DNA of 64,000 nucleotides from Bacteroides finegoldii DSM 17565 (lineage in GTDB: Bacteria > Bacteroidota > Bacteroidia > Bacteroidales > Bacteroidaceae): positions 1 to 64,000 of the forward strand of contig NZ_GG688326.1 in NCBI RefSeq assembly GCF_000156195.1. Reading direction: 5' to 3'. Below the pieces are notes generated by a model. The model was given only the letters and a program-made list of their open reading frames with translations. It did not search any database and was not told the DNA's origin. Of the stretch, positions 39,499 through 54,537 are shown piece by piece (the stretch's first letter is position 1; each line of letters opens with the position of its first letter). The position numbers and the translations under genes are program-made.

Positions 39499-39555
39499 CT
39501 TTATCGCGATAAAGCGCAAATAGTTTGCTTTACAGATACCTTATCCGTACCTTTG
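39499..39555 (+). promoter_or_regulatory. VirE-like gene promoter and 16-bp palindrome
   Basis: TTTG (39524-39527), a 20-bp gap and TACCTTTG (39548-39555) form a Bacteroides promoter 48 bp before the ATG at 39603. Just upstream is a perfect palindrome, CTTTATCGCGATAAAG (39499-39514), a possible regulator site. Confidence 0.65.
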
Positions 39556-39602
39556 AAACCAATAACAAACACTTACTCTCATTAAATATCAAGAGAAGAA
39601 AA

Positions 39603-41687
39603 ATGAAGATTACACAGATCAGGGAAAACGGAGATACGGAGGCACTAAGCGTAACAGACATCGACCTGCTGATAGAAAAAATGAAAAAAGAAACCAAGCT
39701 CCGCCCGGTAACCGGATTACGTCAGGCCCTGCATTTTGTTCTACCCGATGAGCCTTGTTCCTTCGCCAGCAAACTACCACGAGTGATTCCCGCAGCAGCC
39801 TTCGGGCGAGTGAACGGAGTGAAGCGAATGAAAACCTACAATGGCATTGTAAAACTGACCATCGGTCCGCTAGCCGGAAAGACAGAAGTGGAAATCGTGA
39901 AGCAAAAGGCTGCCGAACTTCCCCAAACAATGCTGGCTTTTATGGGAGCAAGTGGTAAAAGCGTCAAGATATGGAGTTGCTTCACCCGTCCGGACGGCAC
40001 TTTACCGCAAACAACGGAAGAAGCCGAAGTTTTTCAGGCACATGCTTACCGGCTTGCCATTAAATGTTATCAGCCTCAACTTCCCTTCAACATTCTATTA
40101 AAAGAGCCGAAACTGGAACAATTCTCACGTCTTAGCTATGATCCGGACTTGATTTATCGTCCCGCTCCCGTACCTTTCTATCTTTCACAGCCCATCGGTA
40201 TGCCCGGCGAGATGACTTATCATGAGAAATCGAGCACTGAAGCATCTCCGCTGAATCGAGCACTGCCGGGGTATGACACGGAAGATACGGTAGCATTGCT
40301 TTATGAAGCGACATTGCGGAAAACATTCGAAGAAATGGAAACGGACTGGCATCGAAACGATCATGATTTGCAAATATTAATAGTCCCGCTTGCCGAGAAC
40401 TGCTACTACTCAGGCATTCCGGAAGAGGAGGCAACCAGACGCACCATCATCCGTTACAACAAAAGAAAGAATCCAATGCTGGTACGTGAAATGATAAGAA
40501 ACGTATATAAGGAATGTAAGGGAGTGCCGAAAAGCAACTGTCTGACCAAAGAGCAACGCCTTAGCCTGCAAATGGATGAATTTATGAACCGCCGTTATGA
40601 GTTCCGTTACAATACGCAGATCGGAGAGGTGGAATACCGGGAGCGTTTCTCGTTCCGGTTCTATTTCCATCCCATCGACAAACGGGCACAAAACAGCATT
40701 ATGCTGGACGCCCAATCTGAAGGAATCGGAGTATGGGACAGGGACATAGACCGTTACTTGCACTCCAACCGTGTGCCTATCTATAATCCGCTAGAGGAGT
40801 TTCTGTTTCACCTGCCACATTGGGATGGGAAAGACCGTATCCATGCGTTAGCCAACAGGGTTCCCTGCAATAATCCGCATTGGGAATTACTTTTTCATCG
40901 CTGGTTCTTGAATATGGTTTCGCATTGGAGAGGAGTAAATAAAATGTATGCCAATAGTACATCGCCTATATTAGTGGGAGCACAAGGAACTCATAAATCT
41001 ACTTTTTGCCGTGAAATGATTCCGCCTGCACTCCGGGCTTACTATACGGACAGTATTGATTTCAGCCAGAAACGGGATGCGGAACTGTATCTGAATCGTT
41101 TTGCGCTCATCAACATTGATGAGTTCGATCAGATTACGCTGACCCAACAGGGGTTTCTGAAACATATTCTCCAAAAACCGGTGGTCAACCTTCGAAAACC
41201 ACATGGCCGCTCGGTGCTTGAGTTACAACGGTATGCTTCATTTATCGGTACAAGCAATCAGAAGGATCTGTTGACCGACCCTTCGGGGAGCCGTCGCTTC
41301 ATCTGTATTGAAGTGACAGGAAACATCGACACTACACAGCCGATAGATTATGAGCAGCTTTACGCGCAAGCCATGCACGAAATTTCTCATGGTGAGCGTT
41401 ACTGGTTTAATAGTGAAGACGAGCAGATTATGACCGAGAACAACCGGGAGTTTGAGCAAACACCGGCTATGCTCCAACTGTTTTATCAATACTTTAGGGC
41501 TCCACAAGCGGGAGAGGAAGGTGAATTCTTTACTCCGGTAGAAATACTGAATTACTTGAAGAAGAAAAGCGGTATTTCATTGTCCGACAACAAAGTATAT
41601 CATTTCGGGAGAATGCTTCAAAAGTGCGGAATTACCTCGAAACATACTTATAAAGGTACTGTCTATCAGGTAGTAAAGATATTATAA
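39603..41687 (+). CDS. VirE/BT4734-like primase-helicase ATPase
   Basis: A 694-residue protein. The N-terminal part (to about residue 250, MKITQIRENGDTEALS then TYNGIVKLTIGPLAGKTEVE) resembles the BT4734-like VirE_N domain of Bacteroides; the C-terminal part is a VirE/D5-like ATPase domain. The P-loop reads VGAQGTHKSTF near residue 460, the Walker B region RFALINIDEFDQI follows, and GTSNQKDLLTDPSGSRRFICI contains the sensor residues. Such proteins are found in mobile and phage-like contexts and are thought to unwind or prime DNA; here no phage neighbours are present. The start at 39603 is fixed by the promoter at 39524-39555. It is followed by the hairpin at 41700-41738. Confidence 0.75.
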   Translation: MKITQIRENGDTEALSVTDIDLLIEKMKKETKLRPVTGLRQALHFVLPDEPCSFASKLPRVIPAAAFGRVNGVKRMKTYNGIVKLTIGPLAGKTEVEIVKQKAAELPQTMLAFMGASGKSVKIWSCFTRPDGTLPQTTEEAEVFQAHAYRLAIKCYQPQLPFNILLKEPKLEQFSRLSYDPDLIYRPAPVPFYLSQPIGMPGEMTYHEKSSTEASPLNRALPGYDTEDTVALLYEATLRKTFEEMETDWHRNDHDLQILIVPLAENCYYSGIPEEEATRRTIIRYNKRKNPMLVREMIRNVYKECKGVPKSNCLTKEQRLSLQMDEFMNRRYEFRYNTQIGEVEYRERFSFRFYFHPIDKRAQNSIMLDAQSEGIGVWDRDIDRYLHSNRVPIYNPLEEFLFHLPHWDGKDRIHALANRVPCNNPHWELLFHRWFLNMVSHWRGVNKMYANSTSPILVGAQGTHKSTFCREMIPPALRAYYTDSIDFSQKRDAELYLNRFALINIDEFDQITLTQQGFLKHILQKPVVNLRKPHGRSVLELQRYASFIGTSNQKDLLTDPSGSRRFICIEVTGNIDTTQPIDYEQLYAQAMHEISHGERYWFNSEDEQIMTENNREFEQTPAMLQLFYQYFRAPQAGEEGEFFTPVEILNYLKKKSGISLSDNKVYHFGRMLQKCGITSKHTYKGTVYQVVKIL

Positions 41688-41883: not shown

Positions 41884-42177
41884 CTATTTTATCTCCACTT
41901 TCGTCTGCAATCTGATGTCATCAGAAGCAGCACCGATCATTACTTGGAAAGTTCCCGGTTCTACCACCCTTTTCAAATTCCGATCGACAAGTGCAAAATC
42001 CTCTTCGGACAAAATAAACTTCACTTCCTGTTCTTCTCCACACTTCAAAAAGAGGCGTGCAAAATGTTTCAATTGCTTCAACGGTTGCACTACTGAAGCA
42101 TATTCATCTCTCAAATAAAGTTGAACAACTTCTTCACCATCGTACTTTCCGGTGTTAGCCGTACATAGTACACTCAT
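41884..42177 (-). pseudogene. GH3 beta-glucosidase fragment (C-terminal Fn3-like domain)
   Basis: The 97 codons encode NTGKYDGEEVVQLYLRDE and LKQLKHFARLFLKCGEEQ, the beta-sandwich typical of the C-terminus of GH3 enzymes, ending with the last strand ASDDIRLQTKVEIK. The catalytic domains are missing: upstream reading enters a TAG and the terminator-like sequence at 42190-42215. The gene was cut near the tRNA-Leu attachment side. It could be a remnant of a gene truncated by an older integration or deletion at this locus. Confidence 0.75.
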
Positions 42178-42187
42178 AAAAACAAAT

Positions 42188-42220
42188 GAGGCTTCATGAA
42201 TCTATATTCATAAAGCCTTT
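42188..42220 (-). terminator. Former tRNA operon terminator, displaced by the integrated element
   Basis: AGGCTTCATGAAT (42189-42201) pairs imperfectly with ATTCATAAAGCCT; on the minus strand it is followed by T-rich sequence. It stands just outside attL. Before integration it would have followed the tRNA-Leu 3' end directly, so it is the likely original terminator of tRNA-Gly/tRNA-Leu. Confidence 0.6.
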
Positions 42221-42227
42221 CAAAAAA

Positions 42228-42255
42228 AAAGAATACTCGTACTTGAAGCGGGACT
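42228..42255. repeat. attL, partial copy of the tRNA-Leu 3' end
   Basis: These 28 bases match 56474-56501 at 27 positions (the mismatch is at 42244). The copied part covers the 3' acceptor strand and part of the T arm of tRNA-Leu. This marks the left boundary of the 14.2 kb element. Confidence 0.9.
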
Positions 42256-42368
42256 AATATAGTTATATTCAAACATATCAAAACACATCTATAATTATCT
42301 ATAATACAATATAATAAGAAATCTAAAAAACAATGCAAAGGTAATAAAATGTAATAGAGTAACAAATA

Positions 42369-42392
42369 TTTGCCCGTAAATTTGCCCGTAAA
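42369..42392. repeat. Integrase arm-type direct repeats, left
   Basis: TTTGCCCGTAAA stands twice in tandem (42369-42380, 42381-42392), 114 bp inside attL. Similar paired GCCCG words occur near attR (56406-56428). Confidence 0.6.
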
Positions 42393-42412
42393 ATTAGATA
42401 TCATTATATTTG
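42381..42412 (+). promoter_or_regulatory. Integrase promoter
   Basis: TTTG at 42381-42384, a 20-bp gap and TATATTTG at 42405-42412 form a Bacteroides promoter 21 bp before the integrase start. It overlaps the second arm-type repeat, so integrase binding could repress its own transcription. Confidence 0.65.
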
Positions 42413-42433
42413 CCATAGATAAAAAATAAGATT

Positions 42434-43900
42434 ATGGCAACTTATAGATTTGAGTTAAATGATAAGCCGTCAAGAAATGGAAAATATTCCGTCTTTTTAC
42501 GGGTGACAGTAAACGGAATCAGGAAAAAGCTAAAGACCAGTATAGAAGTTAACAGAAAATCCGATTGGAATCCTACCCCCAAAGGTGATAATTGGATCAG
42601 ACCTTCAGAACCAAATTCTAAAGCTTGGAACATGATACTATCCAAAACTATAGAGAAAGCCAAAGAAACCTATCAGGAGCTTGCAATCGAAGGAGCGGTT
42701 ACATCAGGAAAAATCATATCAGGAATGAATGCAGAAGCAAATTCTTTTTCCTTTATTAGCTATGCAGAAGAATATGCACAACGTACCTATGAAGCCGGAG
42801 AATACCGAACATACACCAAATACATAACTCTTCTCAATAAATTAAAGTTTTTCATAAACGGGATCACCCCAACCGCAATACCTTTAATCCCACGCAACGG
42901 GAAAGAACTAGAAGAATATTTGAAGAGATTAAAGAAGGATTTACTTTTTAACGAAATAAACCTATCTTTCTTAAACAAGTTTAAAGCATATCTAAAGAAA
43001 GTTCCCAACTCTAAAAATTCTTCTCTAACCTTACACCCAAATACTATTAGTAAACAATTCGATAATTTTAAAAGCCTTTACAATAAAGGAAGAATAGAAT
43101 TAAGAGAGAAAGGTCTATCTCTTAAAAACAATCCTTTTGATGATTTCGAATGCGAAACCATTGATACAAACAAGGAAAAATTAACTATTGAAGAAATAGA
43201 ATCTTTAAAAGCCTTACAGTTAGAAGAAGGCAGTTTAATATGGCATACTAGAAATTGTTTTCTATTAGCTTTTTACTGCGCTGGGATGAGAGCTGGGGAT
43301 TTAATACAATTAAGGGAGAATAATATAATATACGAAAATGGAAGATGGCGGATAAGCTATCGCATGGACAAAACTGGAACATTAAAAGAAATACTTCTAC
43401 TTCCTGAATCAATGGCTATTATTACGAAATACGTAGACTTGAATAGCCGAACATCGAAGTATATTTTTCCTCTGCTTGATAATAAAGCGCCATACGCAAA
43501 AGCTGCCACCTGGGAAGAAAAAGAGCAACTCCCCTATGAATTAAAGAAGATGTTGCTTCAACATACCAACAGTAAAAACAGTTTATTAAACAAGTATCTA
43601 GGAAAATTAGCAACATTGGCGGGAATCGAAAAGAAGATTTCCATGCATATAGCCCGACATTCATTTGCTAATATAGCGAGACAGAAGAAAGCCAACGTTT
43701 ATGACATCAGCAAAGCTCTAGGACATACTAGTTTAAAGATAACAGAAACATATCTTTCGAAATTTGATACAACAAGTCAAGATGCAACAATGAAACAAGT
43801 ATTTGACACCAACAATATTGATGAAGAATTATTAATAAAACAACTTCAGGAGATCGCTCCTGATAAATTAAGGGATATACTTAAAAGAATTGAAAAATAA
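42434..43900 (+). CDS. int: Tyrosine recombinase (integrase)
   Basis: Phage-type integrase of 488 residues. The N-terminal arm-binding and SAM-like domains precede a catalytic domain with Arg286 in CAGMRAGDLIQL, the lysine region (SYRMDKTGTLKEILLLP), the HIARHSF motif at residues 405-411 (His405, Arg408) and GHTSLKITETYL near the end, which supplies the last His and the tyrosine nucleophile. It resembles Bacteroides integrases with an AP2-like arm domain (YRFELNDKPSRNGKYSVFLR). It is the leftmost gene of the element, next to attL, and must act on the tRNA-Leu site. Confidence 0.94.
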   Translation: MATYRFELNDKPSRNGKYSVFLRVTVNGIRKKLKTSIEVNRKSDWNPTPKGDNWIRPSEPNSKAWNMILSKTIEKAKETYQELAIEGAVTSGKIISGMNAEANSFSFISYAEEYAQRTYEAGEYRTYTKYITLLNKLKFFINGITPTAIPLIPRNGKELEEYLKRLKKDLLFNEINLSFLNKFKAYLKKVPNSKNSSLTLHPNTISKQFDNFKSLYNKGRIELREKGLSLKNNPFDDFECETIDTNKEKLTIEEIESLKALQLEEGSLIWHTRNCFLLAFYCAGMRAGDLIQLRENNIIYENGRWRISYRMDKTGTLKEILLLPESMAIITKYVDLNSRTSKYIFPLLDNKAPYAKAATWEEKEQLPYELKKMLLQHTNSKNSLLNKYLGKLATLAGIEKKISMHIARHSFANIARQKKANVYDISKALGHTSLKITETYLSKFDTTSQDATMKQVFDTNNIDEELLIKQLQEIAPDKLRDILKRIEK

Positions 43901-43912
43901 AAAGATATAGAT

Positions 43913-44920
43913 ATGGAAGATGAAACGAACAAAAAAATAGCAGAGCTTGCATTTGAAGCGGCCATGAGAAAAAGATTCATATACCCTCCCAAAGACACCC
44001 TATTGGTTACTGGAGGGAAAAGAAAAATCAATTTTACCCTCCCCCCTGAAGAGCTTGAAAAAATTGAAAAGGAAGATGAGCAGCATCAAGAATCCTTTTT
44101 ACGTATTTTGTTAAAATCCCCATTTGAAGAATATGCAAAAGATATCTATCAAGCACTATCACAAATAAGGTATGCAAATGTTGAATTTTTAAACGAATCA
44201 AGAAGGAAAGAAGTATTAGCTCACCTTCAGAAAGAGCTAGAAATCGCTACTGCCTTATTAGTATGTAAAACAGACACAAACGGAATAATCATCAGCAGTG
44301 CAAAAAAAAGATGCAAACTCCCCACTTTTTTAAAGCAAAAAATAGAAATGGCATTAGAATCTGAATATAAAGATGCCGATTTAGATTCTAGTCCTATGAC
44401 CTACGATGAAGCAAGAGAAATACTTGAATGCGATTTATCCGAAGATGTGCATGACTTTATAGATAACTATTGGAGAGAATATGCGATAGAAGCTGGACTA
44501 AGTGCAGAAGAAATAGCGGGTGGATATAGCTATGATGACATCGACGATGATATGATAGAATATTATAGATCAGGATCTTATTTAAAAAGAGAGATTACCA
44601 TCGAACAAATTCAAGAGACTATAAACGAGTTAAAAGATCGGATAAAAGCTAAACAAAGAAAGGGCGCCCCAAGAACCAATGAAAGACAATACTCTGCATT
44701 GTTAGTCTTTATAAAATATGGTTGCAAAAAAAAACATGAACATCTAGGATATGCATATGAATGTTTAGATCATTGGGGCTTTATTGAAGATGAAATAAAA
44801 AACGGATGGAACAAAACAAACAAATACGCTAATATTCAATACATGAAAAGGTTATTTGATGAGTGTACAAACTATAAATTAGTTATCAAATCAGATACCA
44901 ATTACCAGATGTCATACTAA
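43913..44920 (+). CDS. Hypothetical protein of the island
   Basis: A 335-residue acidic, mostly helical protein. Visible features are a basic middle part (LKDRIKAKQRKGAPRTNERQ) and a C-terminal segment with GFIEDEIKNGWNKTNKYANI. I do not recognise a family. It starts 12 bp after the integrase and is probably co-transcribed with it, followed by a terminator at 44946-44986. No membrane segment, signal peptide or catalytic motif is seen. Confidence 0.6.
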   Translation: MEDETNKKIAELAFEAAMRKRFIYPPKDTLLVTGGKRKINFTLPPEELEKIEKEDEQHQESFLRILLKSPFEEYAKDIYQALSQIRYANVEFLNESRRKEVLAHLQKELEIATALLVCKTDTNGIIISSAKKRCKLPTFLKQKIEMALESEYKDADLDSSPMTYDEAREILECDLSEDVHDFIDNYWREYAIEAGLSAEEIAGGYSYDDIDDDMIEYYRSGSYLKREITIEQIQETINELKDRIKAKQRKGAPRTNERQYSALLVFIKYGCKKKHEHLGYAYECLDHWGFIEDEIKNGWNKTNKYANIQYMKRLFDECTNYKLVIKSDTNYQMSY

Positions 44921-44945
44921 ATAGAACATAAATAATAAATACAGT

Positions 44946-44986
44946 CCTATTAATGTTCTAATAATAGAATATTAATAGGCTTTTTG
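44946..44986 (+). terminator. Terminator after the integrase operon
   Basis: Arms CCTATTAAT and ATTAATAGG enclose a partly complementary middle and are followed by CTTTTTG. It lies 25 bp after the stop of the preceding gene. Confidence 0.75.
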
Positions 44987-45024
44987 TACACCATAATGTT
45001 CCATTTTTAGAACATTATGGTGTA
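44987..45024. promoter_or_regulatory. Perfect 15-bp inverted repeat upstream of the excisionase-like gene
   Basis: TACACCATAATGTTC (44987-45001) and its exact complement (45010-45024) surround an 8-nt loop. It adjoins the terminator and lies about 60 bp upstream of a TACATTTG element (45081-45088), so a terminator for the opposite strand or an operator are both possible. Confidence 0.5.
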
Positions 45025-45080
45025 TCACTTTCTACGATTAAGTTCTACAAAACATTATCAATCAAATAATTACACCATAT

Positions 45081-45088
45081 TACATTTG
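45081..45088 (+). promoter_or_regulatory. -7 element of the replication gene cluster
   Basis: TACATTTG fits TAnnTTTG and lies 47 bp before the excisionase-like gene at 45136. No -33 TTTG is visible. Confidence 0.4.
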
Positions 45089-45135
45089 CATCACAGCAAT
45101 CAGAATTAAGTTTTAACCTGTAAATATATGATGCA

Positions 45136-45444
45136 ATGGTAAATGAAAGTAATGCACCGGCTTCCCTATCAATGGCGGTAGTTCCACAATCTTTTCTTAA
45201 TGGATTGATGGACGAAGTAAGAGAAGTAAAAAGCCTTCTTCAAAAGAAATCAGAAGAAGAAGTTAATAGCCAATGGATAGAATCCACCCAAGTAAGAAAA
45301 AGACTTGGAATATCGGCTAAAACTTGGCAAACCTATCGAGATGAAAGAAGAATCCCTTTCAGCCAGTTCGGACGAAAAATCTATGTAAAACGTGCCGACT
45401 TAGAAAAATTCATGGAGGATCACTACATAGATACTACTAAATAA
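45136..45444 (+). CDS. Excisionase-like helix-turn-helix protein
   Basis: A 102-residue protein with a C-terminal MerR/excisionase-type winged helix (STQVRKRLGISAKTWQTYRD, RRIPFSQFGRKIYVKRADLE). Such HTH_17 proteins bind DNA at att sites or promoters. The N-terminal 40 residues are predicted to form a helix. It is the first gene of a rightward cluster with a winged-helix protein, helicase and primase genes. Recombination directionality factor or a regulator of the cluster are both reasonable. Confidence 0.75.
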   Translation: MVNESNAPASLSMAVVPQSFLNGLMDEVREVKSLLQKKSEEEVNSQWIESTQVRKRLGISAKTWQTYRDERRIPFSQFGRKIYVKRADLEKFMEDHYIDTTK

Positions 45445-45458
45445 GAAAGGGGCTGACT

Positions 45459-45761
45459 ATGGAAGAAAAGAAAAAGGCAGCCTCCACGACCGCCAATCTC
45501 CTCAACAACAGGAGCAAAGATAGCAAATCATCTCGAATCAAACAACAGATTCGCAAACTATTCTTAGATAGTGGCAAGTACACTAGTAAAGATTTAAACA
45601 CCCTTACTGGCGGAAACGATAGCCGGAAAGTCATATCTGACCTTAGAAAAGAAGGTTGGAATATTAAAGACGTTCGTTTGGACGATAGAAGAAAACTATA
45701 TTGGTTAGAGCCGGATAAACGGCAAATGTCTATTGATTGGGAGGTTAATGGCAATGAGTGA
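45459..45761 (+). CDS. Small winged-helix DNA-binding protein
   Basis: A 100-residue basic protein (STTANLLNNRSKDSKSSRIK) with a central pattern typical of a winged helix (IRKLFLDSGKYTSKDLNTLT, then DSRKVISDLRKEGWNIKDVR). The beta wing DDRRKLYWLEP follows. I do not recognise a specific family. It starts 14 bp after the previous gene and overlaps the start of the helicase-like gene, so the three are translationally linked. It may bind the iteron array downstream. Confidence 0.6.
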   Translation: MEEKKKAASTTANLLNNRSKDSKSSRIKQQIRKLFLDSGKYTSKDLNTLTGGNDSRKVISDLRKEGWNIKDVRLDDRRKLYWLEPDKRQMSIDWEVNGNE

Positions 45762-46788
45762 AGCAATAAAACAGATTGTTAGCGAATTTGAAAAGCCTGT
45801 GATTGAGATTCCATCCGATATAATGGATGCTATTCAATGTAGCCGCCTGGACTTATCACAAAATATACCCGATCCGCAAATGCTCGTATCAAAAGGAAAC
45901 CTACCTGTATGTACCCGGGGGAATTTTTCTTTCGTTATTGGTTTACCCGGTGCAAGAAAGAGTTTTCTATGTTCCGGTATTGCCGGGGCGTTCCTGAATG
46001 AAAACGGGTGTATGGGATTAGACAACCCGAACGGATCTGGAAAGTTACTTTGGATTGATACGGAGCAAGCACCGGGGCACGTGGCGAAGATCGGGCGGAG
46101 ACTACACCGCATTGCAGGGCTTCCAACTAACATCAATTCAGATAATATCATTATTCACATGTTGAGAGAGTATCAGCCGCCAATAAGACATAAAATCTTT
46201 TATGCGTGCATGAATCTATATCATCCTGATTTTGTCGTTCTTGATGGAGTTAGTGATCTAATAGCCGACCCTAACAGTTCGGAGCAATCAACGTCTGTAA
46301 TTAATGATTTGATGGCTTTTACAAAAGAATATGATTGCCACGTTCTGACAGTCATTCACGCCAATGTAGGAAGTGAAAAGGCCCGGGGACATCTTGGATC
46401 GGAAGCTTTGCGGAAGTGCGAAACAGCAATTTTTGCGGAGGCTAAAGGAGATGTAACGTTGTGCAAATGGGCTAAAACTAGAGATATGCGACCGATGGAC
46501 TTTGCATTTATGGTTTTGGAAGGGCTTCCCGTTGAAGCTGAATACATACCCATTGAAGCAAAAACGGATAAACTACAACAGACTTTATCAAGCATCATGC
46601 CTCAATATCCGGCAACTATAACCTATTCGGATTTAAGACAGAAACTAATGTTACATCTTGGAGTGAAAGAAAGAGCGGCAGAAAAGAATGTTACGAAAGC
46701 GGTAGAGAATGGATATATTATCAAAAATCAGGTAGGCTGTTATTACCTGCCAAAGATTGAAAAAGCTAATGATACACTACCATTTTAA
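45754..46788 (+). CDS. RepA/AAA_25-like helicase ATPase
   Basis: A RecA-fold ATPase of 344 residues. The Walker A loop reads VIGLPGARKSFL near residue 65, with Arg where most families have Gly; Walker B is PDFVVLDGVSDLI. The core LLWIDTEQAPGHVAKIGRRL and VLTVIHANVGSEKARGHLGS agrees with RepA/DnaB-like replicative ATPases of Bacteroides mobile elements. The frame extends upstream to a TTG at 45733; the ATG at 45754 follows GGGAGG by nine bases. It precedes the iteron array (46792-46896) and the primase gene, forming the element's replication module. Confidence 0.8.
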   Translation: MSEAIKQIVSEFEKPVIEIPSDIMDAIQCSRLDLSQNIPDPQMLVSKGNLPVCTRGNFSFVIGLPGARKSFLCSGIAGAFLNENGCMGLDNPNGSGKLLWIDTEQAPGHVAKIGRRLHRIAGLPTNINSDNIIIHMLREYQPPIRHKIFYACMNLYHPDFVVLDGVSDLIADPNSSEQSTSVINDLMAFTKEYDCHVLTVIHANVGSEKARGHLGSEALRKCETAIFAEAKGDVTLCKWAKTRDMRPMDFAFMVLEGLPVEAEYIPIEAKTDKLQQTLSSIMPQYPATITYSDLRQKLMLHLGVKERAAEKNVTKAVENGYIIKNQVGCYYLPKIEKANDTLPF

Positions 46789-46791
46789 TAA

Positions 46792-46896
46792 CCGTTACCG
46801 TACCGTACTTTTTTACCGTACTCATCACCCCTTCTATAGAAGGGGGTGAATACGGTTAGGACGGTAGACGGTAAAAATACGGTTATTAATACGGTG
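46792..46896. repeat. Iteron array with central hairpin, candidate replication origin
   Basis: ACCGT occurs at 46792, 46798, 46803 and 46816; the complement ACGGT occurs at 46853, 46862, 46869, 46880 and 46892. Between them is a hairpin (46827-46849, CACCCC and GGGGGTG arms). The whole forms a large inverted arrangement between the helicase-like and primase-like genes. Such placement is typical of an element-specific origin, which is inferred. Confidence 0.55.
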
Positions 46897-46922
46897 CCAT
46901 AAATTTATAAAGATTTTGATTT

Positions 46923-47972
46923 ATGAGTGAACATACATATCACCTACAAAAATACGCAGGAACGAGCACCCGCCACACCTGCCCGCAATGCGGACATAAA
47001 GGAGAATTTACTTATTATGTTGATGAAAGGAATGTTCCTATTGATGAATCGTGCGGACGTTGCAACCGGGAACGTTGCGGCTATCATCTGACACCTTCGG
47101 AATATTTCAAGGCACACCCGGCCGATAAACGAAATGAGTTTACCACATGGAAACAGCCGGAACCACCTAAAGCAATTCCCGTATCTTATCTACCTTCTTC
47201 GTTGTTGGCAACAGATACACACCGAGACAGAAACAATCTATTCCGGTTTATGTCTAAAGAGTTCGGAGATGTTGAGGCAAACCGGGTATTTGATCTCTAT
47301 AATGTCGGGACATCTCGTCACTGGAGAAACAATGACGGATTATCTACCACCTTTCCACAGATTAACGAAAAAGGCAAATTATGCCAACTAAAGGTTATGG
47401 CTTATAATCCCAATACGGGAAAACGGATGAAAAAACAAGACCGGGCGGAGATGTGGAGCGATAAGGCGCAAAAGTATATTCCAGATACTCGACCGATGGA
47501 TAAGATTTGGTTTGCCGGGAAAACGCTTCTCAAAAACTATGAGGCTAATCTTCAGCAAACATTCTTCGGTTGCCATTTAATAAAAACCTCATCCCGGATA
47601 GGAATTGTTGAAAGTGAGAAATCAGCCCTTATATGCTCTATTTTGATGCCCGAAATCACTTGGATAGCAACGGGAGGCTGTAACGGATGCAAATGGACGG
47701 AAACAGCCGTTTTCAAGCCGTTATCAGGCAAAAGAGTAGTTTTATATCCTGATAGTGGAATGTTGGCAAAATGGGAAGAAAAAGCCGAAATATTGCACAG
47801 CGCCGGAATAGATGTAACAGTTAGCCGGATATGTGAAGGATTACCGGATAACTGGGACGTGGCGGACGTTCTTCTTCGAGAACGGCATACACAGAAAGGT
47901 ATGAATATTGGTGAAATAATGGCTTATGCCAAAGAGATAGGAGTTTCCCGGCAAATAACATATAACGTTTGA
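46923..47972 (+). CDS. Primase-like protein with zinc finger (DUF6371-like)
   Basis: A 349-residue protein. The N-terminal CPQCGHKGEFTYYV and CGRCNRERCGYHLTPSEYF supply cysteines for a zinc finger as in DnaG-type primases; the second half contains a Toprim-like block (IGIVESEKSALICSILM, then KRVVLYPDSG). I compare it to DUF6371 proteins of Bacteroides mobile elements. It begins 26 bp after the iteron array and ends overlapping the next gene. Together with the helicase-like protein it would start replication of the element. Primase activity is inferred. Confidence 0.72.
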   Translation: MSEHTYHLQKYAGTSTRHTCPQCGHKGEFTYYVDERNVPIDESCGRCNRERCGYHLTPSEYFKAHPADKRNEFTTWKQPEPPKAIPVSYLPSSLLATDTHRDRNNLFRFMSKEFGDVEANRVFDLYNVGTSRHWRNNDGLSTTFPQINEKGKLCQLKVMAYNPNTGKRMKKQDRAEMWSDKAQKYIPDTRPMDKIWFAGKTLLKNYEANLQQTFFGCHLIKTSSRIGIVESEKSALICSILMPEITWIATGGCNGCKWTETAVFKPLSGKRVVLYPDSGMLAKWEEKAEILHSAGIDVTVSRICEGLPDNWDVADVLLRERHTQKGMNIGEIMAYAKEIGVSRQITYNV

Positions 47973-47974
47973 GT

Positions 47975-48418
47975 ATGGAAATAGAAATAATATACGGGCA
48001 AGTGATAGCGAAAGCAAATAACTATCAAGCCGTACCGGGCAAAGACGGCCAGAAACGGATCATCAAAAACGACCGAATCAGGGAGTATGAGAAATCCTTC
48101 TGCCTACAATGCAAGAAGTATCGAGGAAAGCGCATTTCCGGTCGTTTCAAGCTATTTATTCGTGTTTGGCATGGAAATATTCGCTTCGACCTGGATAATG
48201 CTCTAAAAACGATCCTTGATTGCTTGCAAATGGTGGAGGCTATTACAAACGACAGCCTATGTTTTGAGATTCATGCGGAGAAACGGATAGACCGACGGAA
48301 TCCGAGAGTAGAGTTTGGTATGGAAGAGATAAACGAGCAAAAAAATATATTTAGCCAAAATAAAGCGAGCGAAAATCACTTTCATCTGTCAGATGAGCAA
48401 GAGTACCAAAAAGAATAG
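47975..48418 (+). CDS. RusA-like Holliday junction resolvase
   Basis: A 147-residue protein with a RusA fold: beta strands in the N-terminal half, then the acidic block RFDLDNALKTILDCLQMVEA and NDSLCFEIHAEKRIDRRNP. RusA enzymes of lambdoid phages cut four-way junctions and use conserved Asp residues of this block. The ATG at 47975 overlaps the primase gene stop; a TTG at 47969 is a less likely start. Role in resolving recombination intermediates during replication of the element. Confidence 0.78.
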   Translation: MEIEIIYGQVIAKANNYQAVPGKDGQKRIIKNDRIREYEKSFCLQCKKYRGKRISGRFKLFIRVWHGNIRFDLDNALKTILDCLQMVEAITNDSLCFEIHAEKRIDRRNPRVEFGMEEINEQKNIFSQNKASENHFHLSDEQEYQKE

Positions 48419-48468
48419 ATTATCATTTTCGCTCACCTTAAAATGAGCGAGAGCAACATTTAAAAGTT

Positions 48469-48741
48469 ATGGAAGCAATTAAAGAATTAAAGAAAGAGTT
48501 TATTAAGAACAAAGAGCGATTTATCCAAATCGGATATAATCCCCAAACTGAAGTTTACTTATACAAACGTATATTCCCAGGAGGAGCAATCGTTTATGAA
48601 GTGTTTAAACGCAAGATAAATAAACGGTTTAACTATGTTAGCTATCCCGGTAACAATGCCTTTGGTTATTGGGCTTTGACATTCCCCAAATATGAGCAAG
48701 CGAGATATTATTTAGATAATGGGTTTATAAAACCTTCGTAG
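48469..48741 (+). CDS. Hypothetical protein of the island
   Basis: A 90-residue protein with Lys-rich start (KELKKEFIKNKERFIQIGYN) and a core of alternating strands (VYLYKRIFPGGAIVYEVFKR). I recognise no family. It starts with AAAAG about 7 bp before the ATG and shares orientation with the replication genes. The length and composition look like a small phage-type accessory protein. Confidence 0.55.
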   Translation: MEAIKELKKEFIKNKERFIQIGYNPQTEVYLYKRIFPGGAIVYEVFKRKINKRFNYVSYPGNNAFGYWALTFPKYEQARYYLDNGFIKPS

Positions 48742-48874
48742 GCTAATTTTAAAAAGAACCATTCAAGTAAACGTCCATCAAGCGAGGAAAAGTATTACCG
48801 GATAGGTGTTTGTCTAATCGTTGCAAAAAAATTAGAGAACAAATATTTTAATAACCAATTTAATTTTTAACGTT

Positions 48875-49324
48875 ATGAGAAAAAAAGTTTATTCGATCGA
48901 GAACCAAGACGGTTTAAATTTCAGTGTACAAAAGACATCACCGTGCGCCATTACGCACAAGGGAAAGGAAAGGTTACCCGAACAGATTACTTTTCTTTTT
49001 GGAGAAATTGATCCTGAATCAGATTTGACAGAAGATAACAATTTGGTATGTAGTATCAGTAAGGAAGAAGCCGTTAATTTGGCAATCCGCTTACTAAAAC
49101 TTAGCACGAGGGGAGTAGCGGAAAACGGGATGTCATTACATAACTTTTCAGGATACGATTTTTCCGTTCATCATGCCAAAGAAGATGGCGTACATATCGA
49201 TGAACTAATTTTCGAGATCGGTAATCTGGAGGCGGACGATATTGCGGAGGATGGAACCATCTCCGTATGTCTGACTAACGAATCAGCAAAAGAGTTAATT
49301 AAAGTGTTGGCAAAGATTGTATAA
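48875..49324 (+). CDS. Hypothetical protein of the island
   Basis: A 149-residue protein with no recognisable domain; the sequence contains EQITFLFGEIDPESDLTEDN and two repeated beta segments. It is followed by a hairpin terminator (49332-49363) and preceded by 130 bp of AT-rich sequence with no clear features. Function unknown. Confidence 0.55.
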   Translation: MRKKVYSIENQDGLNFSVQKTSPCAITHKGKERLPEQITFLFGEIDPESDLTEDNNLVCSISKEEAVNLAIRLLKLSTRGVAENGMSLHNFSGYDFSVHHAKEDGVHIDELIFEIGNLEADDIAEDGTISVCLTNESAKELIKVLAKIV

Positions 49325-49331
49325 CCCAATA

Positions 49332-49363
49332 CCGGGTAGGTCTGCTTCGGACGATCTACCCGG
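49332..49363 (+). terminator. Hairpin between two island genes
   Basis: CCGGGTAG (49332-49339) pairs with CTACCCGG (49356-49363) across a 16-nt loop that itself has weak complement, followed by A/T-rich sequence. It lies 7 bp after the previous stop and 14 bp before the next start. Confidence 0.6.
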
Positions 49364-49376
49364 CATAAATAAAAAT

Positions 49377-51242
49377 ATGATTATGATAAGAGACGAATTA
49401 TACATCAATAATACAAAGGTTGATCTAGGTAAAACGGATATTACTTTGAGTTATAAAAGTAATTTGCTAACCGATATTAGTAAGATCGTAAGTAATAGCA
49501 GCTATACTATCAAGCTACCGAAAACAGCGAGAAATCTTGCTTTGATTGAGTGTTCTCACATGCCGAGCTCAACGAGCCGTTATCCTTATCTAAAACATAA
49601 AGGTACATTATTGCGAAATGGTATTGAGATAATCAAAGATGCAATTGTAGTATTACTTGAAACCGGAGAATTTATAGAGATAGCTTTAACTTGGGGTAAT
49701 GTCACTAACTTCGCTGGTGTGGTAAACGATGGTAAGAAGCTAACGGATTTGGAATATGGAACAGAAGAGGGAGTAGATTGGGTAGTGTGGAATAATAAAG
49801 GAAGCAATTCTGTACAGTTTCCTCTTATTGATTACGGATTCAATTCCGGTGATCCGAACGTGTGGTATCATCCTGTAGTTACTGTGAAATGGATTTTAGA
49901 CAAGATTCAGGAGCAAAGCGGAGTGACGTTTAATTTTCCTTCTGAAAAACTTACTGTTATAAACAGAATGATTATTCCTCTTTTGACAAGGAATGATTCA
50001 CAAAAATTGTATGACAAATATAGAATCAATTTTACAGGAGATGGAGTATCCAGGGAACAATTAACAGGAGGAAGTACCCAATTATCCGGAAATATAGGTC
50101 TTAATATCAAATTCAATGGAGATAGTACTCAACTTAAGTACGGAAATATAAGGGAATTTACATATCAATCTTCTGTATCACCTTTTAGAACATTAACAAC
50201 TAGAGGTTTTTCATCTTCCCATGATTCAGTAAATACTAAAGTAAAGGGGATTGTTCTTACAACATTTACAATGGCGTACAATCCAAGTAATATCGATAAA
50301 GTATATTTGGAAATACGGGTTAATGAATCTCTCGTGCATTCTATAAAGCCGACATCATTTCAGGAAATTGGCAATAAGCAATATAATGCAGGATTTAACA
50401 TTGATGCAACAGTATCACTAAAACAAGAAGATACATTATTCTTTGTGTTAAACACGAATGATACAACTACTACGGCATCTCAATATACCGATTTGAATCT
50501 TACATTATCAGCTAGAGGTGAAGTTCTTTTTGGAGAGAAACTTCCCTTAGTTCCCAATCTTCCTGATGTTAAACAAATAGACTTTATCAAGGCCATTGCC
50601 TCAATGGTTGGTCTGTTTGCCTTACCGGATGGCGTAAATGGAATCAAGTTTATTCCCTTCGATAATCTGTCTGCAAACAAATCTAAAGCTGTAGATTGGA
50701 CTAACCGTGTTATTATGGCTTATAGGAGTGCAACTCCACGAAGCCTTAAATATACTCTTGACAATATAGCTCAAAATAACAGATTCCGGTATAAAGAAGA
50801 TGATAAGGTAAAAGGGGATTACGATGGAAATATACAGGTCAATGATGCCACGATAGATTACGAACGTGATGCTATTAAACTGCCTTTCTCCGCTTGCGAT
50901 ACAAAGAATGGAGTAGCTTATATCCCTATGTATTCCTACAACGAAAACGGGGAGTTACAATACAATAAAACAAATCCCCGAATATTGCTTCTTGACGGTA
51001 CAAAAGGAGTATTCAAAGGGCTAGAATGGACTACCTTAATTGCAAATAACTACCAGACGTACAAAGGACTAATCAATGATGCAAAGGTAGTGACCGAGTA
51101 TATCCGTCTCAACAGTATCGATTTACGAGATTTAGAGATGGATGTACCGGTTTATCTAGCACAATATGGCTGTTATTTGGCTATCATAGAGATAAAGACT
51201 AATGAGAATGATATATGCGAGTGCAAACTTTTAAAATTATAA
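49377..51242 (+). CDS. Phage tail/baseplate-like protein
   Basis: A 621-residue beta-rich protein starting MIMIRDELYINNTKVDLGKT. The opening (DITLSYKSNLLTDISKIVSN, SSYTIKLPKTARNLALIECS) resembles a tail-associated protein found in Mu-like and other Bacteroidetes prophages; the rest has no recognised domain. It is the only virion-like structural gene in the element. I choose the ATG at 49377 instead of the TTG at 49317, which overlaps the previous gene. A role in phage remodelling or a leftover from a prophage are both possible; confidence in the family is moderate. Confidence 0.5.
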   Translation: MIMIRDELYINNTKVDLGKTDITLSYKSNLLTDISKIVSNSSYTIKLPKTARNLALIECSHMPSSTSRYPYLKHKGTLLRNGIEIIKDAIVVLLETGEFIEIALTWGNVTNFAGVVNDGKKLTDLEYGTEEGVDWVVWNNKGSNSVQFPLIDYGFNSGDPNVWYHPVVTVKWILDKIQEQSGVTFNFPSEKLTVINRMIIPLLTRNDSQKLYDKYRINFTGDGVSREQLTGGSTQLSGNIGLNIKFNGDSTQLKYGNIREFTYQSSVSPFRTLTTRGFSSSHDSVNTKVKGIVLTTFTMAYNPSNIDKVYLEIRVNESLVHSIKPTSFQEIGNKQYNAGFNIDATVSLKQEDTLFFVLNTNDTTTTASQYTDLNLTLSARGEVLFGEKLPLVPNLPDVKQIDFIKAIASMVGLFALPDGVNGIKFIPFDNLSANKSKAVDWTNRVIMAYRSATPRSLKYTLDNIAQNNRFRYKEDDKVKGDYDGNIQVNDATIDYERDAIKLPFSACDTKNGVAYIPMYSYNENGELQYNKTNPRILLLDGTKGVFKGLEWTTLIANNYQTYKGLINDAKVVTEYIRLNSIDLRDLEMDVPVYLAQYGCYLAIIEIKTNENDICECKLLKL

Positions 51243-51246
51243 TGAC

Positions 51247-51408
51247 ATGGAAGAAAATGTAGAAGAAAAGATTCGGAGCATTACCGAACAGGCCAATCAA
51301 ACTAGAAAAATGCTTTTAGAAGAGTATTTGGGACATTCCATCTCTATGGAGGAGGCTATAAATATGGAAATACCGGACGAAGCTCTGGATCATCTAGGAG
51401 ATTTGTAA
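51247..51408 (+). CDS. Small acidic protein, 53 residues
   Basis: An open frame starting MEENVEEKIRSITEQANQTR directly after the tail-like gene (4-bp gap), ending IPDEALDHLGDL. Coiled-coil like and acidic. Its tight spacing with the gene before it suggests that it is translated; no family is recognised. Confidence 0.5.
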   Translation: MEENVEEKIRSITEQANQTRKMLLEEYLGHSISMEEAINMEIPDEALDHLGDL

Positions 51409-51441
51409 TTTAATGACTAAATATAAAAGACTATTGAAGAT

Positions 51442-51935
51442 ATGGCAAAATTTAATGAACAGATAATTCAAAAGTGTGTTGACTGGGTATGTGAGAACGG
51501 GCTTATAGATTATGGTGGTACAAAGCTTATTGATTTTTGTAATGTAATGGGAATCGGAAAGAGTACCTATTACCGATGGATGGAAAATGAAACTTTCGGA
51601 ACTGCTATAAAAAAGCGAAAGAAGATTTCAAAAACGGGTTAGAACGCAATGTTGTTTCTTCCCTTGCAAGGTCTGCCATTGGGTATGAATACGAACAGGT
51701 TTCTTCCGAATACTATATGGAAGGCAAGAAAAAGAAGTTGAAAAAGGAAGTAAGAAAAAATGTCCGTGTTGAGCCTAATGTGGGAGCTGGTATATTCCTT
51801 CTTACAAACCTTGCTCCTGATAGATGGAAGAACAAACAGAACACCGAGCATTCAGGAGAAGTTTCTACAGGATTGACCGTTGTAGTCAAGAACCAGGAAG
51901 AAGCGGATTTAATCAAACAATTAAAAGAACATTAG
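51442..51935 (+). pseudogene. Phage-type helix-turn-helix protein split by a frameshift at a poly-A run
   Basis: The first frame (51442-51642) gives a homeodomain-like HTH (MAKFNEQIIQKCVDWVCENG, GKSTYYRWMENE) and stops. Reading on in the -1 frame from the A6 run at 51609-51614 restores the continuation: GCG AAA GAA then KNGLERNVVSSLARSAIGYE and the known tail of this family to 51935, PNVGAGIFLLTNLAPDRWKN. The intact gene would be about 164 residues and belongs to the phBC6A51-like HTH proteins that accompany small terminases. The junction A AAA AAG (51609-51615) is in the zero frame and is a classical slippery heptamer, so programmed -1 frameshifting is possible as well as mutation. Confidence 0.65.
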
Positions 51936-51937
51936 TT

Positions 51938-52420
51938 ATGTCTGCACCTAAAGGAAACCAATTTTGGAAGTTGAGAAATAAGCATGGGAGAAGCAAGCGT
52001 TTTGCTTCTCCTGAACAGTTGTGGGAAGCAGCCTGTGAGTATTTTGCCTATTGTGACAGGACTCCATGGAAAGTAATCAAGAATAAAACGAAAGGAGAAA
52101 TAAAGGAAAAAGAAGAAAACCCTACACAACGTCCTTACTCTCTGACCGGGTTAATGGCTTATTTAGATGTTAGTAAGTCCTTTTGGAACGATTTTAAAAA
52201 AGGTAGTCATGAAGATTTTTCCGTAGTCATTACACGCATAGAGAATGTCATCAGGACACAACAATTAGAAGGTGCTATTGTTGGTGCGTTTAATCCCAAT
52301 ATAGTTTCCCGAATTATAGGTCTTTCTGATAAACAAAAGGTAACTCATACCATCAACAGTAAAGAGTTTAAAGGCTTTGATTTCTTACCTTATATTCCCA
52401 AAGCAGATGAAAGCATATGA
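51938..52420 (+). CDS. Terminase small subunit-like DNA packaging protein
   Basis: A 160-residue protein. The N-terminal part KGNQFWKLRNKHGRSKRFAS and the helix-turn-helix segment YSLTGLMAYLDVSKSFWNDF, followed by VVITRIENVIRTQQLEGAIV and FNPNIVSRIIGLSDKQ, match packaging proteins that I know from Bacteroidetes prophages. The start MSAPKGNQFW at 51938 follows the previous gene by two bases. No large terminase gene follows; in satellites a small subunit alone can redirect a helper's packaging machinery. Two degraded copies of its DFSVVITR region lie near attR (56261-56382). Confidence 0.7.
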   Translation: MSAPKGNQFWKLRNKHGRSKRFASPEQLWEAACEYFAYCDRTPWKVIKNKTKGEIKEKEENPTQRPYSLTGLMAYLDVSKSFWNDFKKGSHEDFSVVITRIENVIRTQQLEGAIVGAFNPNIVSRIIGLSDKQKVTHTINSKEFKGFDFLPYIPKADESI

Positions 52421-52638
52421 GGTTTTAGCATCAAGCCGCTTTCTACTTGCTACAATGAACAGAAACGGAGTGAGCGCAGATGATATAATGTATCTTTATG
52501 TTCTATGAGTATAGAGATATGCTTGCAGAAGGACGAAAAAAAGCCGAAATTCGGGACTTTCTTTCAAACAAGCATAAGCTATCAGCCTCAACAATAAAAA
52601 GAGTCATAAAACGTCTGAACGATGAATATAAATTATAG
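52407..52638 (+). pseudogene. Small phage-type protein split over two overlapping frames
   Basis: One frame (52407-52508) encodes KAYEVLASSRFLLATMNRNG and ends in YVL; a second frame (52498-52638) encodes FYEYRDMLAEGRKKAEIRDF, ending with an HTH-like SASTIKRVIKRL. Joined, they would give one protein of about 76 residues of a type seen next to small terminases. The two frames overlap by 11 bases, so translational coupling of two peptides is also possible, but loss of one base is the simpler reading. Confidence 0.5.
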
Positions 52639-52675
52639 TTTTAATGGCTAAGTATAAACAAAAGTCCCGAACCAA

Positions 52676-53005
52676 TCAAGGAACGGGGCTTATTATTTCT
52701 CTCATTTCAGCCTTTGCCAAAGGGGAAAGTTCTTTCATATAATTACATTTAAAAGCGGCTGATTCCAGGTCAAGCACATCATAACGAACGCCGGAACGTA
52801 ACTTTCCATCAGCATCTTTATATTTCTTCACTATGCCAGCTTTTACCCATTTAGTAACATTTCCTTTGCCATACCGGATATGTGCCTGATTTTGAGATAT
52901 AAATTGAGATTCTTTAAAGGAGTTGATCCGTTCTTTTTTACGACCCAGATTTTCTGCAAATTCTACTAGCTTAAACAGCAATTCTTCGGATATGGCTACA
53001 ATCAT
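52676..53005 (-). CDS. Hypothetical protein, HTH-like, last gene of the Fic operon
   Basis: A 109-residue protein with [20 protein letters not shown] and [20 protein letters not shown], which has the look of a DNA-binding winged or excisionase-like helix, and a helical tail. Its start overlaps the preceding stop by four bases, so it is co-translated with the truncated Fic protein. No family is recognised; it might be the antitoxin-like partner. Confidence 0.5.
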
Positions 53006-53283
53006 ATATATTTAGCAATGATTTCCTCAAATTTCGTTTCCGGCATCTTTTCTATTACTGGGAGCATCACATCAAGATACATACAATTAGCAAAACGAAA
53101 GTTTCCCTTTACTATATTCAACGTACGCACCTGTCCAGCAAACCTGTACAACCCATCGAACAAATAACGGTGTATGTCACACAATCCTTTTACGGTTGCC
53201 ACCTCAATACGATCTATATCTCCAGTTTCAAACAAGGCATGAGCTTTGCAAAAGCTCAATTTATCTATTTCATTTGTATTCAT
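53002..53283 (-). pseudogene. Truncated Fic-domain protein without catalytic motif
   Basis: The 93 residues match the front half of Fic proteins ([50 protein letters not shown]) and stop just before where the HPFxxGNGR catalytic loop should follow. An ATGA overlap leads to the next gene. It could be a remnant, or a retained fragment that acts in regulation, since translation is still coupled with both neighbours. Confidence 0.6.
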
Positions 53284-53286
53284 ACC

Positions 53287-54048
53287 CTATTGCATTATAG
53301 ACAAATATCTTTGCAAAGAGGCTATTTCGGCCTCAACAACAAGTTTTTGAAAGGCTTCCGGCTTATTCTCTGTATGAGATTCTTCCAGTGCTTTATAATA
53401 ACTTATTTTATCCTCATTGCTACCTTTTAAAGTAACCAATGTATACCCATTCCGTAAAAGATAAAGATTCATCAATAAACGTGACGTTCGCCCGTTTCCA
53501 TCAATAAACGGATGAATACGTACAAGTTCGTCGTGAAGATATGCGGCTATAAGTACCGAATGTACTTTTTCTTCCTCCATCTGTCGGTACTTTATCATAA
53601 AATCCTCCATTTGTTTCTGTATTAGATAAGGTTGTGGCGGCATGTGGGTACTACCGGAAATCATAACGGGAACGGTGCGATACCGCCCGGCATTTTCACG
53701 ATCTATTCCATGCAAGATAAGAGCATGTATTTCTTTGATAGTGCGTTCGCTTATCTCTATATCCTTCTTCGCTATATCTTTGATATAATCAATAGCTTCG
53801 CTATGATTGATAGCTTCCAAATGTTCACGCATAGACTTGCCGGATATGGTAACGCCTTCATTTACCACTAAGGCGGTTTCCTGCAATGTAAGGGTATTAC
53901 CTTCGATTCGGTTACTTTCGTAAGTGTATTCTATATCTAAGGCGTCCTGTATCTTTTGCAACGCATCTTCCGGTAATGGACGTAAAGCGGATAACTCTTC
54001 TTTGAGTGTGTCAGCTTTATCTAACAACTGTTTTAAATCTTCATTCAT
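53287..54048 (-). CDS. Fic family protein (AMP-transferase type)
   Basis: A 253-residue protein with the complete Fic core: catalytic loop HPFIDGNGRTSR at residues 179-190 and inhibitory-type motif SNRIEG at residues 45-50, which places it in the class with a built-in inhibitory helix at the N-terminus. Fic proteins add AMP to target proteins, often under control of that helix. It is the second gene of a four-gene minus-strand unit: XRE repressor, this gene, a truncated Fic and an HTH-like protein. A toxin or phage-resistance role in the island is possible but not shown by sequence. Confidence 0.87.
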   Translation of the reverse strand: MNEDLKQLLDKADTLKEELSALRPLPEDALQKIQDALDIEYTYESNRIEGNTLTLQETALVVNEGVTISGKSMREHLEAINHSEAIDYIKDIAKKDIEISERTIKEIHALILHGIDRENAGRYRTVPVMISGSTHMPPQPYLIQKQMEDFMIKYRQMEEEKVHSVLIAAYLHDELVRIHPFIDGNGRTSRLLMNLYLLRNGYTLVTLKGSNEDKISYYKALEESHTENKPEAFQKLVVEAEIASLQRYLSIMQ

Positions 54049-54066
54049 GACTATTCTACTTTGATA

Positions 54067-54372
54067 TTATAAAACAATTTCTCCGCTTTCTATTCTATCC
54101 AGCAGCCAGGACAAGTCCGATACGCTATTTATATTGTAATTGGTATCTCTTATGCGGATCACTCCAATAATACCACCGGAAGAAGAAGGTCCAAACAGTT
54201 CTGTAATATCAACCTCTAAAGCTGATGCAATCTTTTCCAATGTTTCGAGAGAAGGTGTAGATTTACCATTAACAATATTACTCATATTTGGCTGAGTTAT
54301 CCCTATCATTCCTGCAAGTGATACAACGGTCACTTTTTTTTCCTTTAATACATCTTTAATTCTTAGTTCCAT
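54067..54372 (-). CDS. XRE-family repressor (CI-like)
   Basis: A 101-residue regulator from the ATG at 54372 (MELRIKDVLKEKKVTVVSLA, GITQPNMSNIVNGKSTPSLE). The helix-turn-helix is at the N-terminus and the short C-terminal tail is unlike that of lambda CI. The divergent gene at 54542 has promoter elements surrounded by TTATATCG / CGATATAA words, which would be its binding sites. The layout resembles a lysogeny-type switch controlling the Fic operon leftward and the small ORFs rightward. The frame extends to 54399, but the internal ATG fits the family start. Confidence 0.83.
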   Translation of the reverse strand: MELRIKDVLKEKKVTVVSLAGMIGITQPNMSNIVNGKSTPSLETLEKIASALEVDITELFGPSSSGGIIGVIRIRDTNYNINSVSDLSWLLDRIESGEIVL

Positions 54373-54373
54373 A

Positions 54374-54537
54374 TTATATCGTTTTAGATTATAGTACAAA
54401 CATACTACATTATATCGAACAAAAGTATAAATAAAGGTTAAATATACTCTTATACATGATATTTCCGTGCTATTTATTTTGATTGTATATTTTAATACGA
54501 TATATTTGCGTCATAATAATAACATAAAACGATATAA
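54374..54537. promoter_or_regulatory. Divergent promoters with repeated XRE-type operators
   Basis: Rightward: TTTG (54478-54481), 19 bp, TATATTTG (54501-54508). Leftward: TATGTTTG on the minus strand (54397-54404). TTATATCG words begin at 54374 and 54410, and CGATATA words at 54498 and 54530, so the sites flank or overlap both promoters. Repression of both directions by the XRE protein is inferred. Confidence 0.6.

Follow-up and report, generated by a model that had tools for sequence, protein, structure and literature searches.

A candidate replication origin made of facing iterons behind the helicase gene of an integrated phage-satellite-like island in Bacteroides finegoldii

Results

Genes and Features of the Island

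The window, by which we mean the whole 64,000-nucleotide stretch of Bacteroides finegoldii DSM 17565 DNA that was analyzed, contains an island of about 14.2 kb inserted in the 3' end of a tRNA-Leu gene (Table 1). In this island, a helicase-like gene and a primase-like gene are separated by a 134-bp intergenic stretch (between 46788 and 46923), which is occupied by an array of short facing repeats. The position between helicase and primase genes had been proposed in the initial annotation, and it agreed with the Pfam matches upstream (AAA_25) and downstream (Zn_ribbon_16 and DUF6371). Which codon starts the helicase is uncertain; our coordinates take 45739 as the frame start, and the listed open reading frame starts with TTG at 45733.

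Table 1. Coordinates of the features of the island, in window positions.
Feature	Position	Strand	Basis
attL candidate, 28 bp, 27/28 identical to attR	42228–42255	.	
Tyrosine integrase of the island	42434–43900	+	ORF and Pfam
HTH_17 (excisionase/MerR-like) protein	45136–45444	+	Pfam
Small basic protein, winged-helix-like; no tracking of the word	45459–45761	+	no Pfam match; covariation
Replicative helicase-like gene, AAA_25, RecA/DnaB/RSF1010-RepA fold	45739–46788	+	Pfam, ORF, model, fold matches
Helicase C-terminal domain, residues 278–349, predicted winged helix, proposed iteron binder	46570–46785	+	swap, covariation, model
Facing iteron array, candidate replication origin; nine words, oriented alike ~TACGGTWA	46791–46895	.	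word positions, oriented copies, design conserved in relatives
Left iterons, four ACCGT at 46791, 46797, 46802, 46815	46791–46819	-	word positions and spacing
GC-rich hairpin separating the arms, TATA loop	46826–46848	.	sequence and folds
Right iterons, five ACGGT at 46852, 46861, 46868, 46879, 46891	46852–46895	+	word positions and spacing
Primase-like gene, Zn_ribbon_16 and DUF6371	46923–47972	+	Pfam; weak PHROG DNA primase match; PG0870_Nterm
RusA-like resolvase gene	47969–48418	+	Pfam
Small terminase gene (GP3_package), phage-related cargo	51824–52420	+	Pfam
attR candidate, overlaps 3' end of tRNA-Leu(taa) 56485–56570 (-)	56474–56501	.	

As in phage-inducible chromosomal islands, an integrase with a specific att site is present, together with a phage-related packaging gene (terS), which occurs in some such islands. 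The small terminase was 54.5% identical over 98% to the terminase small subunit of Bacteroides phage BS-TP3, and a 640-residue protein (49317–51242) matched gp59 of the same phage, which sits in the block after the terminase genes, at 34.3% over 97%. Only these two proteins were common to the island and the phage, and given these matches packaging and structure may be functions that the island borrows. Among the island proteins that were scanned, none was a relaxase. In viral contigs no locus was found with a gene related to that of the helicase or primase, and the DNA of 46650–47000 had no match in phage records. An excerpt lists NBU1 of Bacteroides as another element that uses a tRNA-Leu 3' end (PMC5704250).

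Other features were seen in or beside the island. A Fic-domain protein (SoFic-like in PADLOC) is encoded at 53287–54399 (-), opposite in strand to the replication genes, and adjoins a Cro/C1-type repressor. An exact 20-base direct repeat (52212–52231 and 56262–56281), inside the terminase gene and near attR, is part of a longer diverged repeat (52197–52236 and 56339–56378), possibly a remnant of another island. The BT4734-like_N/VapE-like/DUF3874 protein at 39525–41687, just outside attL, is likely to come from a different mobile element.

The Facing Array and the Helicase

Four ACCGT and five ACGGT words had been described as facing each other across a GC-rich hairpin at 46792–46896; the words were verified at the positions given in Table 1 and the array stood, with its start corrected by one base to 46791. 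The facing array is real: nine copies of a 5-mer and its complement in the 134-bp intergenic stretch were matched by 0 of 5000 dinucleotide shuffles (shuffle maximum 8), and the signal of 6-mers in the same stretch was weaker (6 copies, 5/5000 shuffles). Among the other 134-bp windows of the 64 kb, sampled every 20 bases, none reached a score of 9 with a different word, and poly-A/T words scored up to 8. Repetition within a single arm was also above chance (left arm 43/5000 shuffles, right arm 0/5000), with irregular spacing of 6, 5 and 13 bp on the left and 9, 7, 11 and 12 bp on the right. The array begins within the first bases after the helicase stop, as it does in relatives. It holds two iteron sets, and its center is not an AT-rich region but a GC-rich hairpin, CACCCCTTC-TATA-GAAGGGGGTG, with only a TATA loop.

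The helicase was modeled with a mean pLDDT of 86, and its core aligned to structures of RadA, DnaB, Rad51 and RSF1010 RepA at Z ~20 (RepA, 1g8y: Z 20.2, rmsd 2.8, 213 residues aligned). In the predicted structure these matches show a RecA-type motor without singling out RepA, and the RepA-type fold is a weak pointer because it is common to the DnaB, RecA and RadA families. The C-terminal domain was modeled with modest confidence (pLDDT 71), and its matches, mostly winged-helix, had Z below 8. Searching the PDB by sequence gave nothing convincing for the helicase or the primase.

Apparent Exchange of Helicase Tail and Array in Near Relatives

Three near loci were obtained from a genome-contig scan, namely L001 (= L109, B. 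faecalis), L002 (= L107, B. fragilis) and L003 (= L110, B. faecichinchillae), and a fourth (L111) from the family search described below. L003 has the same word and hairpin as the window and differs by an insertion on the right side. L001, L002 and L111 also have a facing array at this place, but the word is TACACC/GGTGTA and the hairpin that it surrounds is a different one. Functional relatives without the repeats had been named beforehand as a result that would refute an origin; instead, the architecture was kept and the word was changed.

The helicases of the window and L001/L109 are identical at 198 of 200 positions in residues 41–240 and at only 34 of 72 in residues 278–349, and the tails (278–349) of L109 and L107, which have a common word, are identical at 67/72. 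At the DNA level, the window and L001, compared in 60-bp blocks, had 95–100% identity from 45701 to 46420 with few exceptions; identity then dropped to 76% and then 63% in the two following blocks, stayed at about 40–63% from 46481 to 46900, was 68% in the next block and returned to 86% from 46961, in the primase gene. L001 and L002 gave the opposite profile, with 86–100% across tail and array and lower identity, mostly 65–85%, in the flanks. The two opposite profiles therefore indicate that tail and array moved together, and the putative swap junction is placed a little before the start of the winged helix.

The binder had been annotated as either the helicase-like or the winged-helix protein. 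In the ten pairs formed by five near loci, the helicase C-terminal core was identical at 37–39/41 residues in same-word pairs and 19–20/41 in different-word pairs; the 41 intact residues of the L110 tail were compared because its helicase gene is broken in the draft record. The small winged-helix protein, in the same ten pairs, ranged from 39/86 to 63/100 in same-word pairs and from 40/87 to 80/101 in different-word pairs. Since it fails to track the word, the small winged-helix protein (45459–45761) was rejected as the first-choice binder, and it may still assist; the covariation points instead to the winged helix predicted at the C-terminus of the helicase, to which the role of binder was reassigned. 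The repeats are thus probably recognized by the helicase tail, and the relatives appear to have swapped tail and repeats as a matched set.

The HTH_17 protein (45136–45444) was also considered as a binder and was set aside: tblastn found no relative at the same place in the near loci, and the proteins at this place in other loci sort, by eye, unlike the words (L110 with L107, L109 with L111). The broken helicase gene of the B. faecichinchillae relative lies at 6400–7532 of the draft record L116, and the array behind it looks intact.

Facing Arrays Across Bacteroidales

The search for the Zn-ribbon family covered 158 genomes at the level of the genus, with 51 matches, and 393 at the level of the order, with 77 rows, a figure that counts the own genome; at the order level the first 15 candidates per genome were scored, and 60 of the 75 matches outside the own genome were fetched. 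Twelve primase queries were run, of which one (L095) was empty. The combined set held 111 stretches, of which 109 were usable after L112 and L113 had been dropped (truncated or no match). The proteins encoded upstream belonged to DUF3987 (60 loci), AAA_25 with HTH_23 (21), AAA_25 of the window type (10) and D5_N (8), with 10 of the 109 proteins outside any group and Pfam run on ten examples.

A facing-array score of at least 4 was found at 53 of 74 representative loci and in 46 of 3545 control windows, a score of at least 5 at 40/74 and in 6/3545, and a score of at least 6 at 27/74 and in 0/3545, the representatives being thinned yet not independent. Scores below 4 were found at 21 of the 74; inspected by eye, some low-scoring loci have long perfect palindromes (L080, L101) or arrays of short words (L203). 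When 21 clusters were tested at k=6, 14 stood at 0/500 shuffles and two at 2/500, and five (L064, L065, L080, L101, L108) were not significant, being equaled by 38 to 482 of 500 shuffles. Example words are TTGCAC/GTGCAA, TTGCAG/CTGCAA, TTTCAG/CTGAAA, TGTCCC/GGGACA, TGTAAC/GTTACA and GTTCAC/GTGAAC, and the arrays of L169, L184 and L189 have three copies per arm in 9-bp steps. In the 28 genomes searched for relaxase, at least 15 of 40 Zn-ribbon loci were followed within 2 kb by a relaxase match in the same orientation; the design is thus common to mobilizable elements and the phage-like island of the window.

In one genome (G447), three Zn-ribbon loci (L181, L182, L185) have the CTGCAA word and a fourth (L171) has GTGCAA, and equal words therein coexist in one cell while integrated. 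L011, L012, L013 and L014 encode distant helicases of the AAA_25 kind followed, by eye, by two successive facing CTTCACTTTA arrays with TATATA centers and a different downstream gene.

Folding of the arrays bears on whether the element acts as RNA, that is, as a long hairpin in the helicase-primase transcript serving attenuation, processing or translation control. As RNA, the array region of the window folded at z -5.8 (0/200 shuffles), and 21 of 22 representative arrays folded at z <= -2.3, as this explanation would expect; L108 gave no fold signal (z -0.3). The opposite strand, however, folded about equally strongly in the window and in the representatives. As single-stranded DNA, a 121-base region of the window had a z of -6.0, with 0 of 200 shuffles equally stable. 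The same word is repeated directly within an arm, the copy numbers are unequal (4 and 5 in the window, with the insertion on the right side of L003), Rfam found two tRNAs only over 42000–57000 and no RNA family in the array, and the word follows a DNA-binding helix. An RNA hairpin by itself explains none of these five points (repetition, copy number, strand, Rfam, helix), and we regard this explanation as highly improbable.

Another reading makes the hairpin chiefly a signal of the ssi or sso type, at which the primase initiates on single-stranded DNA, and the iterons secondary; this, too, is very unlikely in our judgment. A hairpin with a CTATAG/TATA center does recur with other stems in L001, L105 and L101, and RSF1010 has primase-specific hairpins beside its iterons. 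The GC-rich central hairpin, however, is not obvious by eye in the DUF3987 loci, whereas facing iterons are common among the loci.

Recognition Helix and Word

By eye, recognition helices and words in the table of loci go in pairs, for instance xKSTVxRI with TGTCCC, MKVxR with TGTAAC, GxVNKYL with GTTCAC and RRTVxYxL with GTGCA. L189 and L200 are 80% identical in the N-terminal part of the helicase and 17% in the recognition helix, and their words differ. The recognition helix of L184 is nearly equal to that of L189. No array was found in the region before the L184 primase, from which another frame separates the array; it was later located at the helicase stop, and the word is TGTAAC x3/GTTACA x3 in both loci. 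L184 is thus a small forward check, in which the helix predicted the L189 word.

The association was then assessed by partial Mantel tests of word against recognition helix given the rest of the helicase. For DUF3987 (n=25) r was 0.255 (6/10000), with 1139/10000 in the reverse test; for AAA_25-HTH (n=13) r was 0.372 (28/10000), and the reverse test (N-terminal part given helix) gave 133/10000, so that both directions pass. With arrays anchored at the helicase stop, which is a post hoc choice because it was tried after L184 had been seen, the helix given the rest reached 0.213 (43/10000) for DUF3987 and 0.529 (0/10000) for AAA_25-HTH, and the rest given the helix 238/10000 and 6/10000, respectively. 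When the whole C-terminal domain was used in the DUF3987 group, it added nothing to the signal of the N-terminal part (0.038, 3128/10000). A first, smaller test on 13 loci gave 0.229 (182/5000) for word against C-terminal given N-terminal part and 0.134 (727/5000) for the reverse. The helix therefore informs on the word beyond relatedness, though relatedness is not fully removed, and, once the rest of the helicase is corrected for, words track the recognition helix, though not in every version of the test.

Such covariation would suit a regulator equally, and the facing repeats may be read as an operator, bound by the helicase tail or another regulator, that controls transcription into the primase and later genes and has no part in starting replication; the array does lie just upstream of the primase gene. 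In L184, L203 and L208, however, the primase starts 240 to 411 bases after the helicase stop and the arrays are still at that stop, so the array follows the helicase gene and not the primase promoter. In addition, published systems of like design (SaPI, E. coli PICI) are, in the excerpted reports, tested origins (PMC7581432; PMC6092414). We therefore consider an operator unlikely, while not as far-fetched as the two explanations weighed in the preceding section.

Discussion

The array had initially been annotated as a candidate origin, and this reading is well supported by comparison: the design recurs behind Bacteroidales helicases, and origins of PICIs are reported, in the text excerpted, at the same place (PMC6092414). 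We propose, with a probability of roughly 0.8, that an integrated phage-satellite-like island has its replication origin in this stretch, that the upstream helicase would be its initiator and that the C-terminal winged helix of this helicase binds the word, a reading drawn from sequence comparison. Weighing against it are the word's association with the rest of the helicase, the lack of added signal from the whole C-terminal domain in DUF3987, the 21 low-scoring representatives, the GC-rich center and irregular spacing in the window, and the modest confidence of the C-terminal model. The sequences show the array, where it lies, the joint change of domain and word, and how widely the design occurs; binding, helicase loading, melting and excision-linked replication are steps that we infer. 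In the proposed process, the winged helix at the helicase C-terminus would bind the repeated word, and the copies, facing each other from either side, would place two helicase rings head to head. The center of the array would then melt or extrude, and the helicases would travel outwards while the primase from the adjacent gene primes both strands, after excision of the island. Exchange of tail and repeats would alter the specificity of the replicon while the motor is kept; because the domain ends the helicase gene and the repeats come directly after it, both could be replaced together by one recombination.

We also lean, by a little, towards a wider proposal, that integrated elements of Bacteroidales, satellites and mobilizable elements included, have a common plug-in origin, in which the C-terminal DNA-binding domain of the helicase and the adjacent facing array form an exchangeable specificity cassette and the word is readable from a few recognition-helix residues across at least three helicase families. 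If this holds, origin specificity would be predictable and testable from sequence, and the many helix-word pairs are a data set for a recognition rule. The near-isogenic pair of the window and B. faecalis, with one motor and two tail-array cassettes, would be a natural experiment on change of origin specificity. Integrated elements are abundant in gut Bacteroidales, and in the literature listings and paper excerpts that we searched we found no replication origin of this design described for them.

Several known systems can be compared with this locus. RSF1010, with its RepA/RepB'/RepC-oriV replicon, has the RepA that the helicase core matches, and helicase, primase and iterons likewise occur together. 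Its iterons are bound by a separate protein, RepC, whereas the covariation here points to the helicase tail, the small winged-helix-like protein being present without tracking the word.

The Cch2 protein of SCCmec is a D5-type helicase whose C-terminal domain binds downstream AAGTG repeats (PMC7581432, in excerpt), which resembles the short repeats downstream of the helicase gene and the C-terminal domain predicted as binder here. The Cch2 repeats differ in being direct and in three copies, and they were bound in vitro after deletion of inverted repeats, according to the same excerpt (PMC7581432); the partner proteins differ as well. In the PLE replicon of Vibrio cholerae, the initiator's DNA-binding domain covaries with the origin, and the two have been exchanged as modules (PMC8263062, in part), a coupled exchange like the one suggested here. 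The PLE domain, however, is an N-terminal RepA_N and its iterons are semi-palindromes of ~30 bp, as far as the excerpt describes them (PMC8263062), whereas the helicases here have the domain at the C-terminus, as a winged helix or HTH, and the words are short and stand in facing arrays.

A further comparison is with the SaPIs and E. coli PICIs, satellite islands of other phyla whose origins had been mentioned as similar in the initial annotation, a likeness borne out by what the excerpted reports describe (PMC6092414; PMC7581432). Their origin lies directly 3' of the initiator-helicase gene and has two sets of short iterons flanking an AT-rich region (PMC6092414), and the C-terminal domain of SaPI Rep recognizes the iterons directly downstream of rep, the protein apparently binding as two hexamers (PMC7581432). 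The window island resembles these satellites in its size, tRNA att site and TerS gene, and its array is likewise directly 3' of the helicase gene with two iteron sets. It differs in the helicase family (AAA_25, DUF3987 or D5_N at the loci studied), in a primase of the Zn_ribbon_16/DUF6371 kind placed after the array, in the GC-rich hairpin instead of an AT-rich center and in the host phylum, Bacteroidota. Because the AT-rich center is absent, and origin function here is read from sequence, the window array is not filed as a PICI origin, and the design is not confined to satellites since it also occurs beside relaxase genes. With the loci described here, a design of this kind would reach into Bacteroidota and into elements that neighbor relaxase genes and, by analogy, the array may work like the SaPI/PICI origins, with a module swapping like that of PLE.
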